The notes beneath the pieces were generated by a model, which worked only from the letters and a program-made list of their open reading frames with translations, was not told the origin of the DNA and made no database searches. DNA of 64,000 bases from a virus, in IMG/VR virus record IMGVR_UViG_3300009103_000025, positions 1-64,000 of that record; one strand, given 5' to 3'. The translations under genes were made by a program, and so were the position numbers. Position 1 is the first letter of the stretch, and every line of letters begins with the position of its first letter. Below are positions 12,671 to 43,206 of the stretch, in pieces.

Positions 12671-13657
12671 ATGGTACGAACAGGTGCATATGCATACGCC
12701 AAATGGGGTTTAGAATCATCAACCTTCGCTGGCTCAGCTACTATTGACAAGTCATTTGGAGTAAAAACAGCTATTTCTGGCTGGACTTTATCAACCAATA
12801 GACAACAATTAGGAGCACTTGGACAAGTAGAACCAGCCAAATACGCATACGGTACACAAAGTGGTACACTTTCAGTAAACTTTGTATTTGGAGATAAAAG
12901 TAGCCATGAATTATTTAACTGTTATTACCCAAGAAGTGGTTCAGCAGGCGCATATGTTTATGGTTCAGCAACTAGCAGTGGTCAGGGTCAAGCAAATAAA
13001 ACATTTGTAGGAAAATCATTTTCTACAGAAATTGGATTTATAGCAGAAAACGCTGGTACTGATCAACACATTATCAGAACTCTAAAAGGATGTCTTTTGA
13101 ACTCTCTAAACATAACAACAGCAATCAACGATGTAGTTAACTGTTCAGCAGATATTGCATACGGAGATGAAGATGCACCAAGTAATGGTGCTGGAGACTT
13201 TGACGGAATGCCAACTGATGCATCACAACCATTCACATTCGCACATGGTTCATTAAAAATTGGTGGTAACACAATAGCAGAAGTACAAGAAGTAGATATT
13301 ACATTTAACAACAATGGTGACCTATTATACCAATTAGGTAGTAACCAAGCAGTAACTGGTATAAAAAGAACATTAGATATTACTGGAAGATTTAAAGCAT
13401 CATGGCTTAACGATACACTATTAAGAGAAGTAATTAAACAATTAAAAGGTACAGCCTACAAAGAAGAAGTGGGTGGCTCACCAGAATTAGAATTATTCTT
13501 TACAAATGGAGCATCCAATCCAAAAACATTTAAAATAACTGGATATGGTTTAGGACTTGCAGACATTTCTATAACTGGTATTGAACCAGTAGAACCAGTT
13601 TTCGAAGAAATTAACTGGCAAATCAAAGCAGCTAAGATAGACGTAGACGACACCTAG
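12671..13657 (+). CDS. Major tail (tube) protein
   Basis: A 328-residue beta-rich protein with its own strong promoter, located between the tail terminator and the tail chaperones. Features that fit a tail-tube protein are duplicated halves with strands such as SGTLSVNFVFG and LDITGRFKASW, a helix LNDTLLREVIKQLKG, and the C-terminal EINWQIKAAKIDVDDT strand. Archaeal tailed-virus tube proteins are often of this size because two domains are fused. Codon use is more C-ending than average, in line with high expression. Confidence 0.7.
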   Translation: MVRTGAYAYAKWGLESSTFAGSATIDKSFGVKTAISGWTLSTNRQQLGALGQVEPAKYAYGTQSGTLSVNFVFGDKSSHELFNCYYPRSGSAGAYVYGSATSSGQGQANKTFVGKSFSTEIGFIAENAGTDQHIIRTLKGCLLNSLNITTAINDVVNCSADIAYGDEDAPSNGAGDFDGMPTDASQPFTFAHGSLKIGGNTIAEVQEVDITFNNNGDLLYQLGSNQAVTGIKRTLDITGRFKASWLNDTLLREVIKQLKGTAYKEEVGGSPELELFFTNGASNPKTFKITGYGLGLADISITGIEPVEPVFEEINWQIKAAKIDVDDT

Positions 13658-13695: not shown

Positions 13696-14067
13696 ATGGC
13701 AACAAAAAGTTTCGAGATAGATTGGATTAATGGTAAAGAAACTATAGAATATGATGATGATATCACATATGGAGAATTGGAGGCAATTCTTCAAGGTGCA
13801 ATAGATTTATCAGATGTTTCAAAGCCTAAAGTCAATATCCCAAAATACAGATTTTCAATACTTATGAAAGTGTTGAAAAAAGCACCATTCCCAGTAGGTG
13901 ATGCTGTTTCGATAAGAAATCTTAAATCAAAACAAGCAAATCAAATCATGAAGGAGGTCATGAAAGACTACCCTTTAGCGAAGTACTTAGGGGAGTGGGT
14001 GGAGAGTTTTACAGGCTCACTGAATCTGAACGAGCAAGATTCGGAATTTACTACGTCTGCGCCATAG
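13696..14067 (+). CDS. Tail assembly chaperone (gpG-like)
   Basis: A 123-residue acidic-to-neutral protein (starts MATKSFEIDWINGKETIEYDDDITYGELEA) located directly before the tape-measure gene. This is the usual place of the phage tail chaperone that coats the tape measure during tail assembly. Its last part is overlapped by a second frame (13926-14210) reached by a -1 shift at CCCTTTA (13971-13977). Ribosomes that do not shift make this 123-residue form; those that shift make a G-T fusion of about 171 residues. The pairing of short and extended forms is conserved in long-tailed phages. Confidence 0.75.
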   Translation: MATKSFEIDWINGKETIEYDDDITYGELEAILQGAIDLSDVSKPKVNIPKYRFSILMKVLKKAPFPVGDAVSIRNLKSKQANQIMKEVMKDYPLAKYLGEWVESFTGSLNLNEQDSEFTTSAP

Positions 14068-14210
14068 AATTTGGCTGGGATCAAAAAACAGTAGACGCTC
14101 AAGACTCTAAGTATATAAAGAAATTATTAGCCGTGCTTAAAGAAGAAAGAGACAAAGAAAACAAGGCTATGAGTGCACGTCAATCCAAACAAGTAAAGAG
14201 GTTCATGTAG
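13926..14210 (+). CDS. Tail chaperone extension (gpT-like), made by -1 frameshift
   Basis: This frame is open from just after a TAA at 13923 to the stop at 14210 and has no good start: the first candidate is a GTG at 13995 without a Shine-Dalgarno sequence. It lies in the -1 frame relative to the gpG-like gene. Shifting at CCCTTTA would join 94 residues of G to 77 residues of this frame (FSEVLRGVGGEFYRLTESERARFG and so on, ending QSKQVKRFM). The basic helical tail would recruit the tape measure, as gpT does. Coordinates give the open frame; the translated part starts at 13977. Confidence 0.75.
   Translation: MKTSKSNHEGGHERLPFSEVLRGVGGEFYRLTESERARFGIYYVCAIEFGWDQKTVDAQDSKYIKKLLAVLKEERDKENKAMSARQSKQVKRFM
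13971..14002 (+). promoter_or_regulatory. Programmed -1 ribosomal frameshift site
   Basis: CCCTTTA (13971-13977) is a canonical XXXYYYZ heptamer, read C-CCT-TTA in the zero frame and CCC-TTT-A after slipping. Twelve bases downstream is an unusually G-rich run, GGGGAGTGGGTGG (13990-14002), in an otherwise AT-rich gene, which could form a stimulatory structure. Confidence 0.75.
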
Positions 14211-14238: not shown

Positions 14239-15948
14239 ATGAATATGAGTAGTCCAGAAGGAGATAATACAGATTTTACAGAGGTAAAAGACTTAGATAA
14301 GCTCTTCGAGATGCTTACTAAGACAATCGAAAAGTTAAACAAAAAACTCGATGATATGACCAAAACCACTGGTCAAGCAGCTACTGGCAATAAAGATTGG
14401 CACAAAACTCAGGCTCTTTTGAAGATTGAATTAGAAAAAGAACGTGGTAGACAGGTTAGAATGAATAAAGACCACGCTAAAGCATTATCTGAGGGTGGTA
14501 ACCAGATGAAATTATTCACTGGTATGTTAACAAAAGGATTGCCTATCGGTGCAGCTTTTGGAATGTTAACTGGTAAGGCTGAAAAACTGGCTTTACAATA
14601 TGAAGCAAATCAACAAGAATTAGCAAGTTTAGAATCATCATTAGAAAATTTGAATAAAAGATTAAATGACCCTGATTTAGACCCAAAAGAAAGAGGTACT
14701 TTAGAAAGAGCAAAAGAGGGACTAGAAAGTAGAAGAGATACAGCACAAGGAAAAGTTGATGAATCTGGACAAGTAGCAGAAAAATTGGCTGGTGCCAAAG
14801 AATTCTTTGGAAAACATAAAATGGGTATGATGATAGGTGCTGGTTCAGCTGGAGTTCTTATAGGAATATTGAAGAAAGCATTAGATGCATCACCAATGTT
14901 TCAGCAAATTTACAAATTACTTAATTTTGGTATCATGATGATATTAAGACCAATAGGTGACTTCTTTGGTTTCTTAATGAGACCTATTATGATTATGTTA
15001 CTTAGAAAATTCATTATACCATGGTATACAAAGATGTACCCACAAATGATGAAATGGGGTAATGAGATTGGTACAAAATTAGCTGGAGCATTAACAGCAT
15101 TAGCTAATGGAGATATAGGTGGAGCATTCGCATCTTTATGGGGTGAAGTTGATTGGGGTCAAATAATCTGGGATGCAGTAAGATTAATGTCACCAGCTAT
15201 TGCAGCTGCTGACTTTATAGGAGGATTGTTTGGTGTTGGTGATAATACATGGACTAATGAATGGGGTAGAGAAGTAAGTAAGTGGTTTAAAAATGGATTA
15301 GCACAAGCTACCGTTGACTTTGATAATTGGAAATCATCTGTAGAAGAATGGTTTTCAGATGGTATATCAAGAACATATGCGAACTGGAATAAATTCTGGA
15401 GTAATATCTGGACATGGTTTAGTAATGGTATATCTGGTATAAGTGCATACTGGAATAATCTATGGGGTACAGTGTATGGATGGTTCTGGGGTGGAATAAA
15501 CTACATGCAAGATAATTTCAAAGGTATATGGGAAACTGTTTATAATTGGTTCTGGAATGGAGTTAATGGTATAGCAGCTGACTGGGGTAAGATTTGGGAT
15601 AATGTATTAGATTGGTTAAACCCACTATCAGCAAATAAATGGCAAGGTAAAAGTGGTACAAATCAACAAAATAATTCATCATCAAATAGTTGGAATCCAT
15701 TCACATGGGCTGAAGGTGGTCACATAACAGAACCTATAATGGGTATTGGTAGAAGTGGTCAACAATATTTAATGGGTGAAGCTGGAAATGAAACAGTAAT
15801 TCCAGACAAAAAACTAGGTGATATTGGTGGTACAAACATCACAATTAACATACAAAGTATGAGTGGTTCACAGCAAGACTTAAATAATCTAAGGCAAACA
15901 ATACTTAATGTGATGCAAGAGTCAAATACAAGGAGAGGTAGAGTATAA
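14239..15948 (+). CDS. Tail tape measure protein
   Basis: A 569-residue protein with the layout of a tape measure: N-terminal coiled coil (DLDKLFEMLTKTIEKLNKKLDDM), a hydrophobic hairpin (LFTGMLTKGLPIGAAFGMLTG), a second coiled coil, a long hydrophobic region around MMIGAGSAGVLIGILKKAL and GIMMILRPIGDFFGFL, and a C-terminal segment EGGHITEPIMGIGRSGQQYLMGEAGNETVIP that is characteristic of the family. Between residues about 365 and 460 are four tryptophan-rich repeats of about 25-28 residues. The protein sets tail length; at roughly 0.15 nm per residue it predicts a tail of under 100 nm. The start could be 14239 or 14245 (MSSPEG). Confidence 0.85.
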   Translation: MNMSSPEGDNTDFTEVKDLDKLFEMLTKTIEKLNKKLDDMTKTTGQAATGNKDWHKTQALLKIELEKERGRQVRMNKDHAKALSEGGNQMKLFTGMLTKGLPIGAAFGMLTGKAEKLALQYEANQQELASLESSLENLNKRLNDPDLDPKERGTLERAKEGLESRRDTAQGKVDESGQVAEKLAGAKEFFGKHKMGMMIGAGSAGVLIGILKKALDASPMFQQIYKLLNFGIMMILRPIGDFFGFLMRPIMIMLLRKFIIPWYTKMYPQMMKWGNEIGTKLAGALTALANGDIGGAFASLWGEVDWGQIIWDAVRLMSPAIAAADFIGGLFGVGDNTWTNEWGREVSKWFKNGLAQATVDFDNWKSSVEEWFSDGISRTYANWNKFWSNIWTWFSNGISGISAYWNNLWGTVYGWFWGGINYMQDNFKGIWETVYNWFWNGVNGIAADWGKIWDNVLDWLNPLSANKWQGKSGTNQQNNSSSNSWNPFTWAEGGHITEPIMGIGRSGQQYLMGEAGNETVIPDKKLGDIGGTNITINIQSMSGSQQDLNNLRQTILNVMQESNTRRGRV

Positions 15949-23827: not shown

Positions 23828-26800
23828 ATGGCTTTCCTAAAGGTTTTTCAAAGTAACCTATTTGATAACGATCTTTTCTCTATAAACCAGACACTTGGTA
23901 AAACATTTCAGGGGTCTATTTTTGATTCAGATTTATTTCAGCAAGCTCCTACAACTATAACATATGTAAGAAACCCATTCCAGTCTAATATATTCCAAAA
24001 AACATACAACAGTAAGTTATTATTCCAAAAACAATATACACAAATATCATATGGAACTATCGCTAAGTTATTCCAAACTAACATATTTGATGTAGATATA
24101 TTCCAGCAACCTCATACAATAAATGTTTATCCAAGAAAAGTATTCCAGTCTAATATATTCCAGAAAGTATTATTCCAAACAACTCAGGTAGCTAATGCTG
24201 GTAAATATGTATTCCAATCTGGATTATTCCAAGGAAATGTGTTTGATGTACCAAATTCAATCATTAAAACAATACAAGAAATAATAGGAATAGATGAAAC
24301 AATTCCAAAGGCAATAGGATTCCCAAGAATAACATATGATGCAGTACAACTTGTTATGCAAGTATATAAGGTCATGGGTAAGACAAAATCTAGGTCAGAT
24401 TTAGAAAGAATAACAGAAGTATTCTATCATACGAGGGCTCGGAGTAAACCATTAACACCAGATGTTGAAAATGTAGTAGAATTTATCGTTTATAATAAAA
24501 CCACAGACACCACTTATGTGTTTAAGGTATTTCAATCAAATATATTCCAGAGTAACGTATTCCAATTTAAGTATAAGAGAGTTAGAGAAACAGCAAACAA
24601 AGTATTCCAATCAATATTCCAGAGTGATATATTCCAAACATCAGGTCATAAGGTACAGACAGTACCAAAAACATTCAGCAGTATATTCCAAAGTGATGTA
24701 TTCCAAGGTAGTTATGATAAGACAACTGTTAACAGAAGTGTATTCCAATCTGGTATATTCCAAGTAGGACTATTCCATCAAACAATACAGAAATTCAGAG
24801 AAGAAAGAGACACGATATCTGTATCAGAAACTGTTTCATATGCTAAGGGTAGACCACAATCTATCTCAGAAACCGTAGGAATTACAGAACAAAACAACTA
24901 CATAGAGAACGCATCTGGTAGAGAATTATCTGAGACCATAACAGAGAATGTAAACGTAAGTGAAACAACCAAATCATCTGTAGGAAAAATAAAAACTGTA
25001 AGTGAAACATCATTAGTAAATGAAACAATAGTAGGAGAGCCTGCAAGAGATCCAAATATTGTTGCTAAATTATTCCAGACAAATGTATTTGACCAAGACA
25101 TATTCCAGAAGAGGTATCTAAAGACAGTAACATCAGTAGGAAAGGTATTCCAGACAAACATATTCCAATCAATATTCCAGCAAGCATCTAACCCACAAAC
25201 TGTAGGTAAATTATTCCAGAATAATGTATTCTCTACAAAGATATTCCAATCTGATTCATTCTTAAGGACTTCATTAGGTAAAATACAAACAATATTCCAA
25301 GTAGGAGTATTCCAGTCAACAGCATTCCAAACAAAGGTACCAATACCAAAGGTAGCACCACTTGATACTGTAGGAATAACAGAGACAACATCAACGAGAA
25401 GAATACGTGATAACTTTAAATCAGTAACTGAAACAGTAGGAATATCTGATACACCTACAAAGGTAGAAGGATTTGTAAAGACATCAAGTGATACTATAGG
25501 AATCACAGATACATTAACTAAAGTATTTGGTATTGTTAGACTTGGTTCTGACTCTGTTAATATTAATGAATCAATCTCAGTAAAGATACACAAACAAATA
25601 GATGAAAACATCAATGTCAGTGAGTCCATAATAAGAAAGAGAGACCTAGTAAGAGTGGTTAATGAGAATGTATCAGTAACAGAATACAGATTCAAACCAG
25701 TTGAGAGAGTAAGAGTTGTAAGCGAAACTGTTAATGTTAATGAGAGTGTTGTATTCCCATGGTACAAGAACATAACAGAAATAGAAAACATAAACGAGTT
25801 AGTAGTTAGGGCAAGAACAATACTAAGAACAATAACTGATAACATTGAAATTAATGAAAGTGGAACACCAAAACACTATGCAATAGAACCAAGTTATGTA
25901 AGCAAAGTATTCCAAACCAATGTATTCCAGCAAGATGTATTCCAGAAACTATATGATAAGAATGCAGTTAAACCAATAATATTCCAGTCTAATGTATTCC
26001 AGTCTGATATATTCCAGCAAAAACTACAACCATTAGAAAGAACTGTAGGTTCAATATTCCAGACTAATGTATTTGCAACCAATGTATTCCAGAAAACATT
26101 TGATGCAACTGCACCACTTAATAGATTATTCCAGAGAAATGTATTCCAGTCTGATGTATTCCAGAAGAGATACCAACTATCAACTGCTGTTAAGAAAGTA
26201 TTTGATGGAGATGTATTCCAGAATAAAGTATTCCAGACTAAAGCATTTGATACTGCTATCACAGTTTCAAGACCAGTGTTCTCAGGTATTTACCAATACC
26301 CACTGTTCCAAGCACCAGAACCAGTAAAGAAGTTTGTCGAAGATACAGAAGAGATAGTTGAAACATTAAGAGTAGTATTTGGTTCATCTCAGAGACCTAC
26401 TGATGTAATAAATGTTACAGAAGCATTATCTAGAGCAAGGACATTAGTAAGAAGTGTTAGTGAAACTGTTAATGTAATAGATACACCAGCACTATTCAAA
26501 CAAAGAACATGGAAGATAGCAATACCTGAAACAGTAGGAATTACTGATGAGATATTAACAAAGAAGAGACAGGTTACATACTTTGTCAATAAAGTATTCC
26601 AAACTAATATCTTTGACCAAGATATATTCCAGAAGAGATGGGATGAACATAGAATCGTACCAAAACTATTCCAAACTAACATATTTGACACTGATGTATT
26701 CCAGCAAACATTCAACAGGTTTACTATTCCAGCTGTATTCCAATCTAATGTATTCAGTGGTAAATTCTGGCAGAAAGGATATGACACTAGAAAACTTGGT

Positions 26801-29800
26801 AAGTTTGTATTCCAGCCTTATGTATTTGATAGTGATGTATTCCAAGCACCAATTAGTAAGAAGGATGTCGTATATGATACAGTTAACATTAGTGAGGCAG
26901 TAAACAAAGTAGAAGGATTTGTAAAGGCTGTTAGTGATACTGTAGGTATTACAGAAGGAGTTAATGTATTAAAACAAAGAACAATAACAAAGACTGTTAC
27001 AGAGAATGTAAACGTAAGCGAGATAAACAACAGAGCAGTTCCACTAGTTAGAACTATCAATGAAAATGTATCTGTAATAGACCTTACCAAACATAAGAAA
27101 GAGCAAACAATATTCACAATTCCAAGAGTATTCCAAACTAATGTGTTTGATAATGATGTATTCCAGCAATTATGGGATCCATCTAGTACCTCTGTTAGTA
27201 AAGTATTCCAGTCTAACATATTTGATACCGACTTATTCCAGCAAGGATATAACACAAACATTAAGCCAGCTGTATTCCAGTCTAACGTATTCAATAATAA
27301 AGTATTCACTACAAAGGTATTCAACATACTAAAGAAATCAACTGTAGTATTCCAATCATTTGTGTTCCAGTCTAATACATTCCAGTCTGCAATAGGTAGA
27401 GCAAAATCAGTTTACGAATCAATAGGAATTACAGATGCATCTGCAATAGTGAAAGGATTTGTTAAGACTGCTACAGATAGTGTAGGTGTGTCAGAAACAA
27501 CACAAAGTATTGTTAGAAAGACACTAACAAAGACTGTTACAGACACTGTTTCATTAAGTGAGACACTAGCAAGGGCAACACCAAAGAAGATTACATTAAC
27601 AGAGAATGTATCTGTACTTGATACATATTCATCTTACTTCAAGAAACAGACAATATTCACTATCCCAAGAGTATTCCAGACTAACATATTTGATAATGAT
27701 GTGTTCCAGCAGTTATGGGATCCATCTAGTACAAGTGTTACAAAGGTATTCCAGAGTAATATATTTGACAGTGATGTATTCCAGACATCAACATTTGATA
27801 CCACTGTTACACCAGCAGTATTCCAAAGTAATGTATTCAATAACAAGGTATTCACTACAAAGATATTTGATAGTAAGACTATATCAACTGTAGTATTCCA
27901 GCCTTATGTATTCCAGAGTACTGCATTCCAATCTGCAATAGGTAGGTCAAAGACAATATATGACATAGAAGGAATAGTTGAATCAACATCAATAGTTAAG
28001 GGAGATGTTGTACCTACTGCTGATACTGTAGGAGTAACTGAACAAGTCAACAGTATTGTAAGAAAGACAGTTAAAGCAACTGTTACAGAAACTGTCAGTG
28101 TAACTGAAGCAAACAATAGGGCTGTACCAAAATTCATAACTGTAACTGACAATGTTGCAATTAAAGATGATAAGACATCATACTTAGACAAACAGGTAAT
28201 ATTTACTATCCCAGCAGTATTCCAGACCAATGTATTCGATGGTGATGTATTCCAGAAGCTATGGGATCCATCTAGTACAACTGTTAAGAAAGTGTTCCAG
28301 TCTAATGTGTTTGACCAAGATGTATTCCAGAAACAATACATTACAACAACAGTTCCAAAAGTATTCCAAACCAATGTATTCCAACAGAATATATTCCAGA
28401 AAGCAACAGACACCACAAAGAAACAAACATCTGTATTCCAACAGGGAGTATTCCAGCCAGATGTATTCCAAGCACCTACAGCACTTAACAAGGCAGTTTA
28501 TGATACTATTGGTATTACAGATAGTGAGAATCATAGATTTGGATTTGTTAAGACTGCAAGTGATAGTATCGGTATTTCAGAATCAACATTCTCTGGTAAG
28601 GGTAAGACAGTATCAGTCGTTGATAATGTATCATTAATAGAAACAACACAGAAAGTTATACAGAAGGTACAGGTAATAATAGATACTGTAAAGTCTATAG
28701 ATACTACAGTACCATTCAGATGGAGAACTGTTACATTCATTTACAGTCCATTCCAATCCAATGTATTCCAATCCAATGTATTCCAAGACAGATATGAAAT
28801 ATTCCCAAGTGGTAGACGTAGAGAAAAGATTGAGAAGGTATTCAGTAGTATATACCAAAGCGATGTATTCCAAGGAGACATATACGACACCAATCTGGTC
28901 TATAGAGTATTCCAGCCTACAATATTCCAGCAACCTTCATTCAGTTATCCAAAGGCAATATTCCAGAGAACATATTACAAGTCTGACATTGAAGAGAAAG
29001 AGACAAAGATATACCAAGAGAATATATTCCAGCATAACGTATTTGCAACAAGAACACCTCTACACATAGAGGAACTAAACCACTATGTAATAGAAGAAGT
29101 AGGAATAACGGAGTCAATATCTGTTAAGAAGGAGTCATTTGTATCTGTAGTAGAGAATGTATCTATTGGAGAAGCCACACAACCAGTAAGAACATTCAAC
29201 AAGACAATTACAGAACCAGCAGTATCTATCACTGAAAGTGTAGATAAAGCAAGAGAGATGAGTAGAATTGTTGATGAGAATGTATCTATAACAGAAACAA
29301 CTGGTAGACTACTGAACAAGTTCAAGGCTGTTGCAGAATCAGTTACAGTATCTATATTCCAAGGAGTACAAGAAAGAGCAAGAACAATCTCAAGAACTGT
29401 AACAGATAATGTAAGTGTCAGTGAGACAAAACAATACGCTATAGGATTAATCAGGTGGATATCAGACTCTGTAGGTATCACTGAAGCATTCAACAGATTC
29501 AGAGGTATTGCAAGACCAATAGCAGAAACAATCAATGTATCTGAAGGAACTGATAGAGTAAGAACATTGATTAGACATGTAGCAGAAAGTGTACCAATCA
29601 ATGAGGCTGTAATAAAAGCAAGAACATTAATCAGAGTATTCACTGAGTCATTATCTGTAAGCATATGGCAACTCAATAAGAGATCAAGAGTACTTGCAAG
29701 AACAATAGGTGAGAGTATATCCATTGCAGAATCTAAATACAAGAAGATTGAAATAATCAGAGTAATAACAGACACTGTAGGTATCACTGAACTTATTACA

Positions 29801-32590
29801 AGATTCACTGAGAAATTCAGAAAGATATCTGAGAGTATAGCAGTTAATGAATCATTAGTAAGAGTTAGAACATTAATTAGAAAACTATCAGATAATGTCA
29901 GTGTATCTGAATCAGTTGTAAGAACAAGAGAGATACTAAGAATATTAACAGAGTCTCTAGGAATTACAGATGTAGTTACAACATTCAGAGATAGGTTCCA
30001 AGCAATATCTGATATAGTTGAGATAGTTGACTTCAGAGGTAGAGTAAGAGAGTTAATCAGAGTCATAGTCAATGAGACCGTGGGTATTACTGAATCATTA
30101 GTAAGACTAAGAGTATTAAACAGAGTGGTTAATGAAGTAACTAACATCAGTGAAACAATTACAAGATTCACTCAGAAGTTCAGAACAATCACTGAGAATG
30201 TTTCAATAACTGAGGCAGTAGATAAGGTTAGAACAATAATAAGAACACTCACAGATAATGTAGGTATCACAGAAACAATAACTAGAGTAAGAGAATTAGT
30301 TAGGGCTATAAGTGATTCTGTAACAGTCAATATATTCCAAGGTAGATTCAGAGTACTTGCAAGAACAATAGCAGACTCTGTTGAAGTGTCTGAATCATTA
30401 GTAAGAGTAAGAGGATTAATAAGAATACTATCTGAGAATACAATCATATCTGAATCAATCACAAGATTCACTGAGAAGTTCAGAAGTGTTACAGAGAATG
30501 TAGCAGTTAATGAATCAATAATAAGAGTAAGAGAATTGTTGAGAATGATATCTGATAATGTCAACATATCAGAGTCTGTAGTAAGAGTGAGAGAATTAAT
30601 CAGAATGATTAGTGACTCTGTAGGATTAACAGATGTAATAACAACATTAAGAGAGAGATTCCAAGCAGTGTCTGACACCGTAACTATAGAAGACTTCAGA
30701 GGTAGAGCAAGAGAGTTAATTAGAATCATAGTAACTGAAACGGTGGGAGTTACTGAGTCATTAGTAAGAACAAGAACACTGAATAGAATCATTAGTGAGA
30801 TTACCAATATATCTGATACAATCCCACACTTTAAGACAATAAGTAAGGCAGTTGCAGATACTGTTGAGATAATCGAGACAGCAGTTAAGCAATATGTAAT
30901 CATGAGAATGATTAATGAATCTGTTACAATATCTGAGAGTGTATTAAGAACCAGAGTACTTAATAGAATCATCAATGAGATAGTTAATGTAACTCAGTTC
31001 CAAGGAAAGGTAGCTGAACTGGTCAAGATAATTAGTGAGTCTGTAGGAATAACAGAATCAATAGTAAGACTAAGAGACCTAATAAGAATCATTAATGAGA
31101 CAGTTAATGTCAATGAGGTTACAAAGATTCTACACTTCTTACAAAGAACAATAACTGAACCAGCAGTAGTAATATCTGAGAATGTAATAAGAAGTAGAGT
31201 ACTTAACAGAATCATCAATGAGATTGTCAACGTATCTCAATTCCAAGGCAAGGTAGCTGACATTGTTAAGATAATAACTGAAACAATAGGTGTATCTGAC
31301 AGCATAGTAAGACTGATTGGTAGAGTAAGAATCATTGCAGAATCTGTAGACATAACAGAAACAAAGGTCAGAATAAGAGAAATTGTTAGAATGTTAACAG
31401 ATACTGTCAACGTTAATGAGATTACAGACAGAGTAAGAGACTTAATCAGAATGATATCTGACACTGTAACAATAGATGACTTCAGAGGAAGAGCCAGAGA
31501 ACTAATTAGAATAGTAGTAACTGAAACTGTCAACGTATTAGAGAACGCAACAAAAGCAAGAAGTATCATAAGAACAATAGCAGATGCAACATTGGGTATT
31601 ACAGAATCAATAGTAAGGTTCAGAGAGATCTCACGCATACTATCAGATACTATCAATACTAACGAGACTTTAGATACTATTAGAAACAGATTTGGTATAA
31701 TAACAGAATCTGTAATCATCTGGGAGAGTATAGAGAGAGCAAGAACATTAATCAGAAACATTGCTGATACTGTAACAATAGATGACTTTAGAGGTAGGGC
31801 TAGAGAACTAATTAGAATAATAGTCAGTGAGACTGTATCAATAGGAGAGTCAATAGTAAGACAATCTACAATAACCAGAGCATTTACTGAGGCTGTAACA
31901 ATAACAGAATCAGTATTAAGAACCAGAGAATTGACCAGAATATTATCTGACACAATCAATGTATCTGATATAGTAGGTAGAATACGAGAACTATCAAGAA
32001 TAATCAGCGATACTGTATCAATAGATGACTTCAGAGGAAGAGTAAGAGAATTAATCAGAATAATAGTCAATGAATCGGTGGGTATTACTGAAACTACAAA
32101 GTTCGCAATAGGAAAGTTCAGATCAATAGCAGATACTGTAATCATTACAGAAGGATTTGCAAAGGTTCAAGGTATAGCAAGAACCGTTGCATTAGATGCA
32201 GTTAACATCACTGAGTCTGTATTGAGAACCAGAGAGTTGAGCAGAATCATCAATGAGATAGTTAACATATCTCAATTCCAAGGTAAATTAGCAGATATAA
32301 TAAGAGTAATAGATGAGACTGTTAACATCTCAGAAACTGTTGTAAGAGTAAGAGACTTACTAAGACATGTTACAGACAGTGTGACAGTAACACAGTTCAG
32401 ACAAAGACTAAGAGACTTAGTAAGAGTAGACACTGCTATTGTACATATCATAGAAGGAATACCAAAACAACTAGGATTGTCCAAGGTAATAAACGAGGAT
32501 GTTAACATCACTGAGTTTAGAAATGTATTCAACAATTTGATATTAATTATCAATGAGACAATACATGTAACAGAATCATTCATACTATTG
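23828..32590 (+). repeat. Protein-coding tandem repeat tract
   Basis: DNA-level view of the giant gene. TATTCCAG/A-type units (coding for VFQ or IFQ) are scattered through 23.8-29.1 kb, and from 29.1 to 32.6 kb the units are about 60 bases. Recurrent words include GATACTGTA, GAATCAT, AGAGTAAGAG and AGACTTCAGAGG. The copies are diverged, so this is an old array rather than a recent expansion. Confidence 0.7.
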
Positions 32591-32890
32591 GTAAGATTCG
32601 GATTTGGATTGGTCACTGGTTCAATAGGTTCATCTGTAGTACAAAACACATTGAGAACACACAATAAGACAGCAGATGTTGTAACAGCATTGAGAGATAA
32701 ATCTATCAAGATATATATGAACAGTAAATCATTGAAAGAAGAGGCTAAGAGTAAGGCTGAAAGAGTGGCTGATAAAGCAAAGTCAGTCGCAACTGAGGCT
32801 AAGAGTAAAGCACAGAAACTCTATGATAGAAGCAAATCTGGAAATCTTTATAAACGAGATAAGTCAACAAAGGATGAAGACAATGAGTAG
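23828..32890 (+). CDS. Giant 3020-residue repeat fibre with FQ and SETVxITE repeats
   Basis: An uninterrupted frame of 9 kb after a good AAAGGAG site. Two repeat types alternate in the first ~1750 residues. Type A is a 5- to 10-residue pattern, VFQSNIFQSDVFQ, seen in bacteriophage tail proteins. Type B is about 20-24 residues, DTVGITEsvxxxxxxxRtvS. From about 1750 to 2900 only type B remains, regular at about 20 residues with RVRELIRMI, giving over 50 copies. The final 80 residues are a lysine/alanine-rich helical tail (EEAKSKAERVADKAKSVATEAKSK). Type B strongly resembles repeats in large surface proteins of ammonia-oxidising archaea (from memory). It is probably a very long fibre for host contact; the next gene overlaps its stop codon. 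Confidence 0.6.
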   Translation: MAFLKVFQSNLFDNDLFSINQTLGKTFQGSIFDSDLFQQAPTTITYVRNPFQSNIFQKTYNSKLLFQKQYTQISYGTIAKLFQTNIFDVDIFQQPHTINVYPRKVFQSNIFQKVLFQTTQVANAGKYVFQSGLFQGNVFDVPNSIIKTIQEIIGIDETIPKAIGFPRITYDAVQLVMQVYKVMGKTKSRSDLERITEVFYHTRARSKPLTPDVENVVEFIVYNKTTDTTYVFKVFQSNIFQSNVFQFKYKRVRETANKVFQSIFQSDIFQTSGHKVQTVPKTFSSIFQSDVFQGSYDKTTVNRSVFQSGIFQVGLFHQTIQKFREERDTISVSETVSYAKGRPQSISETVGITEQNNYIENASGRELSETITENVNVSETTKSSVGKIKTVSETSLVNETIVGEPARDPNIVAKLFQTNVFDQDIFQKRYLKTVTSVGKVFQTNIFQSIFQQASNPQTVGKLFQNNVFSTKIFQSDSFLRTSLGKIQTIFQVGVFQSTAFQTKVPIPKVAPLDTVGITETTSTRRIRDNFKSVTETVGISDTPTKVEGFVKTSSDTIGITDTLTKVFGIVRLGSDSVNINESISVKIHKQIDENINVSESIIRKRDLVRVVNENVSVTEYRFKPVERVRVVSETVNVNESVVFPWYKNITEIENINELVVRARTILRTITDNIEINESGTPKHYAIEPSYVSKVFQTNVFQQDVFQKLYDKNAVKPIIFQSNVFQSDIFQQKLQPLERTVGSIFQTNVFATNVFQKTFDATAPLNRLFQRNVFQSDVFQKRYQLSTAVKKVFDGDVFQNKVFQTKAFDTAITVSRPVFSGIYQYPLFQAPEPVKKFVEDTEEIVETLRVVFGSSQRPTDVINVTEALSRARTLVRSVSETVNVIDTPALFKQRTWKIAIPETVGITDEILTKKRQVTYFVNKVFQTNIFDQDIFQKRWDEHRIVPKLFQTNIFDTDVFQQTFNRFTIPAVFQSNVFSGKFWQKGYDTRKLGKFVFQPYVFDSDVFQAPISKKDVVYDTVNISEAVNKVEGFVKAVSDTVGITEGVNVLKQRTITKTVTENVNVSEINNRAVPLVRTINENVSVIDLTKHKKEQTIFTIPRVFQTNVFDNDVFQQLWDPSSTSVSKVFQSNIFDTDLFQQGYNTNIKPAVFQSNVFNNKVFTTKVFNILKKSTVVFQSFVFQSNTFQSAIGRAKSVYESIGITDASAIVKGFVKTATDSVGVSETTQSIVRKTLTKTVTDTVSLSETLARATPKKITLTENVSVLDTYSSYFKKQTIFTIPRVFQTNIFDNDVFQQLWDPSSTSVTKVFQSNIFDSDVFQTSTFDTTVTPAVFQSNVFNNKVFTTKIFDSKTISTVVFQPYVFQSTAFQSAIGRSKTIYDIEGIVESTSIVKGDVVPTADTVGVTEQVNSIVRKTVKATVTETVSVTEANNRAVPKFITVTDNVAIKDDKTSYLDKQVIFTIPAVFQTNVFDGDVFQKLWDPSSTTVKKVFQSNVFDQDVFQKQYITTTVPKVFQTNVFQQNIFQKATDTTKKQTSVFQQGVFQPDVFQAPTALNKAVYDTIGITDSENHRFGFVKTASDSIGISESTFSGKGKTVSVVDNVSLIETTQKVIQKVQVIIDTVKSIDTTVPFRWRTVTFIYSPFQSNVFQSNVFQDRYEIFPSGRRREKIEKVFSSIYQSDVFQGDIYDTNLVYRVFQPTIFQQPSFSYPKAIFQRTYYKSDIEEKETKIYQENIFQHNVFATRTPLHIEELNHYVIEEVGITESISVKKESFVSVVENVSIGEATQPVRTFNKTITEPAVSITESVDKAREMSRIVDENVSITETTGRLLNKFKAVAESVTVSIFQGVQERARTISRTVTDNVSVSETKQYAIGLIRWISDSVGITEAFNRFRGIARPIAETINVSEGTDRVRTLIRHVAESVPINEAVIKARTLIRVFTESLSVSIWQLNKRSRVLARTIGESISIAESKYKKIEIIRVITDTVGITELITRFTEKFRKISESIAVNESLVRVRTLIRKLSDNVSVSESVVRTREILRILTESLGITDVVTTFRDRFQAISDIVEIVDFRGRVRELIRVIVNETVGITESLVRLRVLNRVVNEVTNISETITRFTQKFRTITENVSITEAVDKVRTIIRTLTDNVGITETITRVRELVRAISDSVTVNIFQGRFRVLARTIADSVEVSESLVRVRGLIRILSENTIISESITRFTEKFRSVTENVAVNESIIRVRELLRMISDNVNISESVVRVRELIRMISDSVGLTDVITTLRERFQAVSDTVTIEDFRGRARELIRIIVTETVGVTESLVRTRTLNRIISEITNISDTIPHFKTISKAVADTVEIIETAVKQYVIMRMINESVTISESVLRTRVLNRIINEIVNVTQFQGKVAELVKIISESVGITESIVRLRDLIRIINETVNVNEVTKILHFLQRTITEPAVVISENVIRSRVLNRIINEIVNVSQFQGKVADIVKIITETIGVSDSIVRLIGRVRIIAESVDITETKVRIREIVRMLTDTVNVNEITDRVRDLIRMISDTVTIDDFRGRARELIRIVVTETVNVLENATKARSIIRTIADATLGITESIVRFREISRILSDTINTNETLDTIRNRFGIITESVIIWESIERARTLIRNIADTVTIDDFRGRARELIRIIVSETVSIGESIVRQSTITRAFTEAVTITESVLRTRELTRILSDTINVSDIVGRIRELSRIISDTVSIDDFRGRVRELIRIIVNESVGITETTKFAIGKFRSIADTVIITEGFAKVQGIARTVALDAVNITESVLRTRELSRIINEIVNISQFQGKLADIIRVIDETVNISETVVRVRDLLRHVTDSVTVTQFRQRLRDLVRVDTAIVHIIEGIPKQLGLSKVINEDVNITEFRNVFNNLILIINETIHVTESFILLVRFGFGLVTGSIGSSVVQNTLRTHNKTADVVTALRDKSIKIYMNSKSLKEEAKSKAERVADKAKSVATEAKSKAQKLYDRSKSGNLYKRDKSTKDEDNE

Positions 32891-42357: not shown

Positions 42358-43206
42358 CTATTCAAACTTGGAGGTAATAACATCTAAAATGCCGTCAAGT
42401 AATTCAAATATACCAATATCATCATTAGTATAACCCTGTATTCCTCCAAAGCCATCATTACCATAGATGATTCTCATTGCCTCTCTATCTGCTACTGGAA
42501 TTCCTATGTCTGGATATTCTTGGAATGGATTCATTTGTGGGTACATTAATGATTCAACTTTTCCTCCTACAGTGTCTTCAATATAATGACCGACACCTAA
42601 AGCATGACCTAACTCATGTTTAATAATACTTGAGAGTGCATCATTTCCTATTGGTTTTGGTGTCATATCAATCTCTACATTTTTTGGTGTTTCGTCATCA
42701 CATCCTATACAGAAACTAAATTTTTGACCTACTTCTATAGATTCTAAATAAATCATAATGAAAGCCCACTGATGACCTGATTTAGAAAAATCTATTTGGG
42801 TATAACCTAATGCACTTTGGTTAGGAATATGTTGACCCATGTTAGACCTATCAAACTCTATGAAAATATTACATTGATGAAAATCAGTAACTAATTTATT
42901 GTAATGGTCTTCAAAAGGAATTAATTGTTGATGGATAACCCAGCCAGTAGGCTTGTGATGTTTTAAACCCTTTGTGTAATCATACATCGCTTCAGACCAA
43001 GCAAAAACTGCCTTATTTGCAACCTCTACATCATTCTCATGGAATCTAAATTGGAGTGTTGGTTCTGGTTCCATTATACAAACCATAGGATTGTCTTTAT
43101 GGGCTATTCCCATAGTCTCTAGTTTATCAGCGTTAGCACTGATAATCCCTGCCAATGTAATGATGCCTACTATAATAAGACCACAGGTTATCATAAATCT
43201 ATCCAT
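42358..43206 (-). CDS. Secreted matrixin-type zinc metalloprotease
   Basis: A 282-residue protein with an N-terminal signal or anchor helix (MITCGLIIVGIITLAGIISANA). The catalytic motif HELGHALGVGH (197-207) has the three zinc-binding histidines and glutamate of metzincins, and Met221 (ESLMYP) fits the Met-turn, so it is a probable active matrixin. Cys166 and Cys169 may form a disulfide. Related enzymes are found in ammonia-oxidising archaea (from memory), suggesting host origin. Acting outside the membrane it could cut surface-layer protein during entry or release. It shares a TATA box with the divergent gene at 43257. Confidence 0.8.
   Translation of the reverse strand: MDRFMITCGLIIVGIITLAGIISANADKLETMGIAHKDNPMVCIMEPEPTLQFRFHENDVEVANKAVFAWSEAMYDYTKGLKHHKPTGWVIHQQLIPFEDHYNKLVTDFHQCNIFIEFDRSNMGQHIPNQSALGYTQIDFSKSGHQWAFIMIYLESIEVGQKFSFCIGCDDETPKNVEIDMTPKPIGNDALSSIIKHELGHALGVGHYIEDTVGGKVESLMYPQMNPFQEYPDIGIPVADREAMRIIYGNDGFGGIQGYTNDDIGIFELLDGILDVITSKFE

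Follow-up and report, generated by a model that had tools for sequence, protein, structure and literature searches.

We find that a tailed virus, probably of archaea, very probably makes two tail assembly proteins from one short gene through a programmed -1 frameshift of the lambda G/GT kind, with a Shine-Dalgarno (SD)-like GGAGGU as the likely stimulator. The -1 frameshift itself is supported as well as sequence alone allows, and we regard it as nearly certain; its lambda-like character follows from the chaperone fold of the predicted product and from the place of the gene between the tail tube and tape measure genes. The window that we analyzed is a 64,000-nt stretch, positions 1 to 64,000 of IMG/VR record IMGVR_UViG_3300009103_000025, a 65.5-kb virus contig. 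The features that bear on the frameshift are as follows.

12671..13657, + strand: gene for the major tail (tail tube) protein (Pfam Phage_tube_2, E = 6.9e-18; 78/78 flanked relatives carry a homolog upstream of G)
13696..14067, + strand: G, predicted tail assembly chaperone, zero-frame product of 123 aa (sequence; AF2 fold match)
13953..13958, + strand: SD-like GGAGGT, within AAGGAGGT at 13951-13958 (anti-SD energy, conservation)
13971..13977, + strand: slippery heptamer C_CCT_TTA, predicted -1 shift site (in phase in 79/79 distinct relatives; 0 substitutions by parsimony)
13977..14210, + strand: T, the -1-frame extension of 77 codons and a stop (YY..A.EFGW motif; weak PHROG 9001 match)
14239..15948, + strand: tape measure protein gene (PHROGs 167 and 305, E about 1e-7; homolog downstream in 56/56 flanked relatives)

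A slippery heptamer in two overlapping frames

The original prediction, made on the letters of this DNA, placed CCCTTTA at 13971-13977 in the phase needed for a simultaneous -1 slip, and the sequence bears this out. The zero frame, 13696 + 3k, divides the heptamer as C CCT TTA, so that CCT occupies 13972-13974 and TTA 13975-13977. The -1 frame stays open between 13926 and a TAG at 14208-14210. The zero-frame stop of G is at 14067. The lengths given earlier for the two products, 123 residues for G and 171 for a G-T fusion, were also correct, the fusion being composed of 94 residues read before the shift and 77 after it.

In the mechanism that we propose, most ribosomes would read G to its stop and produce the 123-aa chaperone, and a minority would slip back one base on C_CCU_UUA, tRNA-Pro moving from CCU to CCC and tRNA-Leu from UUA to UUU, to produce the fusion; both the slippage and its efficiency we infer. 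By analogy with lambda, G would coat the tape measure protein, with T in the fusion recruiting the tail tube protein. No viral tRNAs were found within the window.

A heptamer in a single genome is weak evidence when taken alone. Elsewhere in these G genes, in-phase XXXYYYZ sequences occur at a rate of 0.0077 per codon, and about 0.36 are expected by chance in the 47-codon overlap, so that one such site lies within chance expectation and proves little.

Conservation of the heptamer across relatives

Relatives were collected from viral contigs by one single-sequence and three alignment-based scans, which yielded 82 distinct G sequences. The slip site is reached by 79 of these, the other three being contigs that end before it. 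Comparison of heptamer and phase in related viruses, the check proposed with the original prediction, found CCCTTTA in phase in every one of the 79, at identities down to ~35%, a count to be read with a possible bias in mind, since a peptide pattern adjoining the slip site served in part of the G-based scans. A -1 extension of 66 to 95 codons follows in all 79. The slip codons are invariant (CCT, 79/79; TTA, 79/79), and the codon before them always ends in C (TAC in 58, TTC in 20, and CAC in 1). On a tree made from the codons upstream of the site, parsimony counted 14 to 20 third-position changes at control Pro codons, 17 to 22 at control Leu codons, and 17 each at Tyr51 and Phe65; on the same tree, the slip codons had none. 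In this set of relatives, the invariance of CCCTTTA is far beyond chance.

A further scan was seeded on T alone and was blind to G. It returned 44 distinct loci. In 39 of these, a long open zero frame leads to an in-phase CCCTTTA; the other 5 carry CCCTTTC, also a legal heptamer. These five are the cases in which the heptamer is changed while both frames are intact, and only the Z letter varies; the XXXYYY logic is kept. Both the CCCTTTC group and two loci with CCCTTTA (L265 and L266) encode a G protein different from that of the window. At L265/L266 and at L269-L272, the -1 frame has a stop directly ahead of the heptamer.

Gene order, fold, and probable host

The order tail tube, G, T, tape measure, all on the same strand, recurs in relatives with enough flanking sequence (78/78 upstream, 56/56 downstream). 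Searches with the G sequence gave no usable match in Pfam and PHROGs and no match in the phage collection. The AlphaFold (AF2) model of G (pLDDT 82) matched BFVD entries for viral tail assembly chaperones, one from Bacillus phage 019DV002 (E = 2e-4) and one from Haloarcula virus HHTV-2 (E = 1.3e-3), as well as an uncultured archaeal virus protein; a fold search of the PDB returned no match. Judged by this model, G has the tail assembly chaperone fold. The T model is helical, and its only reasonable fold match is an uncharacterized protein of an uncultured archaeal virus (E = 5.5e-3). T also matches PHROG 9001, "tail assembly chaperone," weakly (best E 0.001).

Two side observations concern these modules. 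BFVD entries A0A1S5Y368 and A0A1S5Y388, both uncharacterized and both listed for an uncultured archaeal virus, resemble G and T in fold, one each, and on the strength of the models they may mark an unrecognized frameshift there. In addition, at L262-L264, L267, L269-L272, L265, and L266, a different G is joined through C_CCT_TTC or C_CCT_TTA to a T with the motif YY.CAKEFGWT, and these loci have no SD-like element; the T module appears, from such sequences, to be common to different G families. The different G of L265 had no match in the phage collection, Pfam, or PHROGs.

The contig encodes MCM and Rad51-like proteins. In the phage collection, MCM matches only archaeal viruses and the tail tube protein matches only the Haloarcula viruses HCTV-1 and HCTV-16, while the best match of the terminase is Halogranum virus HGTV-1. 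Because these three proteins point to archaeal viruses, an archaeal host is likely. Genome contigs searched with G, and with the Rad51-like protein to trace the host, gave no confirmed cellular or proviral copy. Two further genes of the window were noted. A 3,020-aa open reading frame downstream of the tail genes (23828-32890, + strand), with FQSNIFQ-like and RELIRIISDTVGITES-like repeats, would encode a giant repetitive structural or adhesin-like protein. A matrixin-type metalloprotease (42361-43206, - strand; Pfam M10 at the cut-off), unusual cargo for a tailed virus, is probably secreted.

A conserved SD-like element upstream of the heptamer

The original prediction sought a stimulator downstream of the heptamer and overlooked the SD-like element upstream of it. 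The last G of the GGAGG core lies 13 nt upstream of the heptamer, and the stretch in which it stands, ATC ATG AAG GAG GTC ATG AAA GAC TA, is strikingly conserved in nucleotides among relatives. Glu87 within the motif is encoded by GAG in 47/47, though the gene prefers GAA, and the SD-like core is kept despite changes in the residues that it encodes (KEV, SEV, SGV, KGV, AGV, and REV). Strong codon preferences are also seen outside the SD core and the heptamer, for ATC at Ile84 (13945-13947) and for GAC at Asp91 (13966-13968; 60:6 over GAT, against the gene-wide use of GAT).

Scored against a general archaeal-type 16S tail, from which the 16S 3' end of the actual host may differ, the mean anti-SD duplex energy peaks at -9.96 kcal/mol at offset -18, over a background of 0.12 ± 1.69, and 78 of the 79 relatives reach -5 kcal/mol or lower. 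The per-sequence minimum averages -10.3, compared to -5.26 ± 0.29 for synonymous reshuffles (z = -17, a value that is overstated since it counts related sequences as independent). Strong SD sequences are absent at the starts of most genes of this virus, and other SD-like sites of similar strength exist within the window; across the relatives compared, it is conservation, not strength, that sets this site apart.

The comparative data make it probable that the element is functional. As in dnaX, GGAGGU would stimulate the shift by pairing with the 16S anti-SD during elongation; that it acts in this way on archaeal ribosomes is less certain than its function, and slightly more likely than not. Among the sequences at hand, it is common, not universal. 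The motif is weak in one relative (L158, -3.8) and missing from L237 (-3.9), and it is missing from the C_CCT_TTC group. Because L158 and L237 keep CCCTTTA all the same, the element would modulate rather than define the site.

The frameshift could be real while the conserved GGAGGTCATG is maintained by something other than anti-SD pairing, whether a protein, codon, or tRNA-pausing constraint or another RNA or DNA signal. The unusual uniformity of neighbors that have no SD potential, such as the Ile84 and Asp91 codons, fits this explanation, as does the fact that L158, L237, and the CCCTTTC group manage without the motif. Against it, the strongest anti-SD complementarity in the G gene falls at precisely this element and at fixed spacing over differing residues, and that complementarity exceeds what synonymous reshuffling produces. 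The 13-nt distance to the heptamer also falls inside the 9- to 14-nt range known for SD stimulators of -1 sites (Atkins et al. 2016, PMC5009743). We therefore consider a constraint of another kind rather unlikely. With pairing as the preferred explanation, we lean slightly toward a broader proposal, based on these sequence comparisons: the anti-SD of archaeal ribosomes would scan mRNA in elongation, as the bacterial one does, and archaeal tailed viruses of a large clade would exploit this, an SD-like element 13 nt 5' of C_CCU_UUA driving the -1 shift with no 3' RNA structure involved.

The downstream G-rich stretch

The G-rich GGGGAGTGGGTGG, at 13990-14002, does begin twelve bases downstream of the heptamer as first described, and it had been put forward as the stimulator of the shift through a 3' structure. 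That role is very doubtful. The motif is present in the window and in one near relative, and it is exact in only 2 of the 79; two tracts of three or more Gs occur in 28/79 and GGGG in 22/79, and the region is dual coding around a near-invariant Trp. Predicted folding downstream of the heptamer is near random, with mean z values in four intervals of -0.24, -0.53, -0.26, and -0.09 among relatives and a z of -0.54 for the window's own sequence. A search with RNAalifold for a conserved 3' RNA structure across relatives gave an energy of about 0 and found none. What speaks for a structure is a weak 5-bp hairpin that begins 21 nt past the heptamer and is paired in 86%, a slight excess over column shuffles (0.86 versus 0.83). 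The lambda-like tail-chaperone frameshift of the original prediction was thus upheld by the heptamer, phase, and frames (79/79), by the fold, and by the gene order; its G-rich stimulator found no support.

The T frame is coding and has no conserved start

The -1 frame is coding, as judged by its conservation: the YY..A.EFGW motif of T is shared across relatives, and G codons 118 to 122 are frozen at the nucleotide level where the -1 frame encodes a conserved IYYFCA. The -1 frame had been described as lacking a start of its own. It has no conserved start, but a GTG is present at 13995, and T could in principle be a separate gene initiated within G, for instance at this GTG, with no frameshift at all. 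An NTG does occupy position +24 of the T frame in 61/79 relatives; it is, however, a by-product of the near-invariant frame-0 Trp codon, TGG. In 18/79, no ATG, GTG, or TTG occurs in the T frame before +120, by which point much of the conserved T has been passed. The SD-like motif is ~37 nt away from the GTG, and independent initiation would leave the invariant in-phase CCCTTTA unexplained. We consider a separate T gene highly improbable, and an internal start was rejected as the NTG is not conserved. Decay of one gene, by an old frameshift mutation or an assembly error, is practically inconceivable: sequencing errors can produce overlapping frames, but the same arrangement, with both frames conserved, is found in 79 distinct sequences on many contigs, which refutes it.

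Relation to known frameshift sites

G/GT frameshifting is widespread in tailed phages (PMC5009743). As in lambda (Levin 1993; Xu 2004; PMC5009743), the window's gene lies between the tail tube and tape measure genes, specifies a short chaperone and a -1 fusion, and has its XXXYYYZ slip site toward the 3' end of G. It differs from lambda in that its G has no detectable sequence similarity to annotated chaperone families, in its conserved 5' SD-like element, and in its probably archaeal host.

The nearest parallels are haloarchaeal siphoviruses. A G-T frameshift was predicted earlier for HVTV-1 and HCTV-1/2/5, and a +1 shift for HSTV-2 (PMC5009743, PMC8211752), so prediction of such a frameshift in haloarchaeal viruses is already known; in HCTV-1 and HCTV-16, it is annotated as joined genes. 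The statement that archaeal viruses offer few examples was therefore fair. HVTV-1, HCTV-1/2/5, and HCTV-16 are likewise tailed archaeal viruses whose -1 shift lies between the tail tube and tape measure genes, but the HCTV-1 heptamer is G_GGA_AAC where the window has C_CCT_TTA, the G proteins are not alignable, and it is the window's site that has been tested for conservation across a large clade. As a lead, SD-like sequences, AGGGGAG or AGGAGAG, also stand just upstream of G_GGA_AAC in HCTV-1 and HCTV-16, with AGGGGAG in HCTV-1 (L209:7455-7490) giving an energy of -7.2.

Escherichia coli dnaX shares with the window an internal Shine-Dalgarno 5' of a -1 heptamer under the 9- to 14-nt spacing rule; it is bacterial, however, and adds a 3' stem-loop, whereas the window's site has no conserved 3' structure. 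The same CCCUUUA has been proposed for -1 shifting in Giardiavirus, which is a eukaryotic dsRNA virus and in which the proposal is disputed (PMC8230311). Internal SD stimulators are documented in bacteria, and for the Sulfolobus fucosidase, rare codons are said to fill that role (PMC8037382). Proven archaeal recoding is rare: the one worked-out -1 case in reviews is the Sulfolobus fucosidase, beside a small number of haloarchaeal viruses in which it is predicted. The open-access literature, as searched, held no description of an archaeal SD-like stimulator, no account of this frameshift in these viruses, and no paper linking Thaumarchaeota viruses to tail-gene frameshifting.

What is new here is very strong comparative evidence for the frameshift in another, probably archaeal, virus clade, together with a likely anti-SD-driven stimulator acting on the archaeal ribosome. 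One site conserved over 79 distinct virus sequences provides a ready test case for archaeal recoding, and it allows a direct test of whether archaeal ribosomes, like bacterial ones, are induced to frameshift by their anti-SD during elongation.
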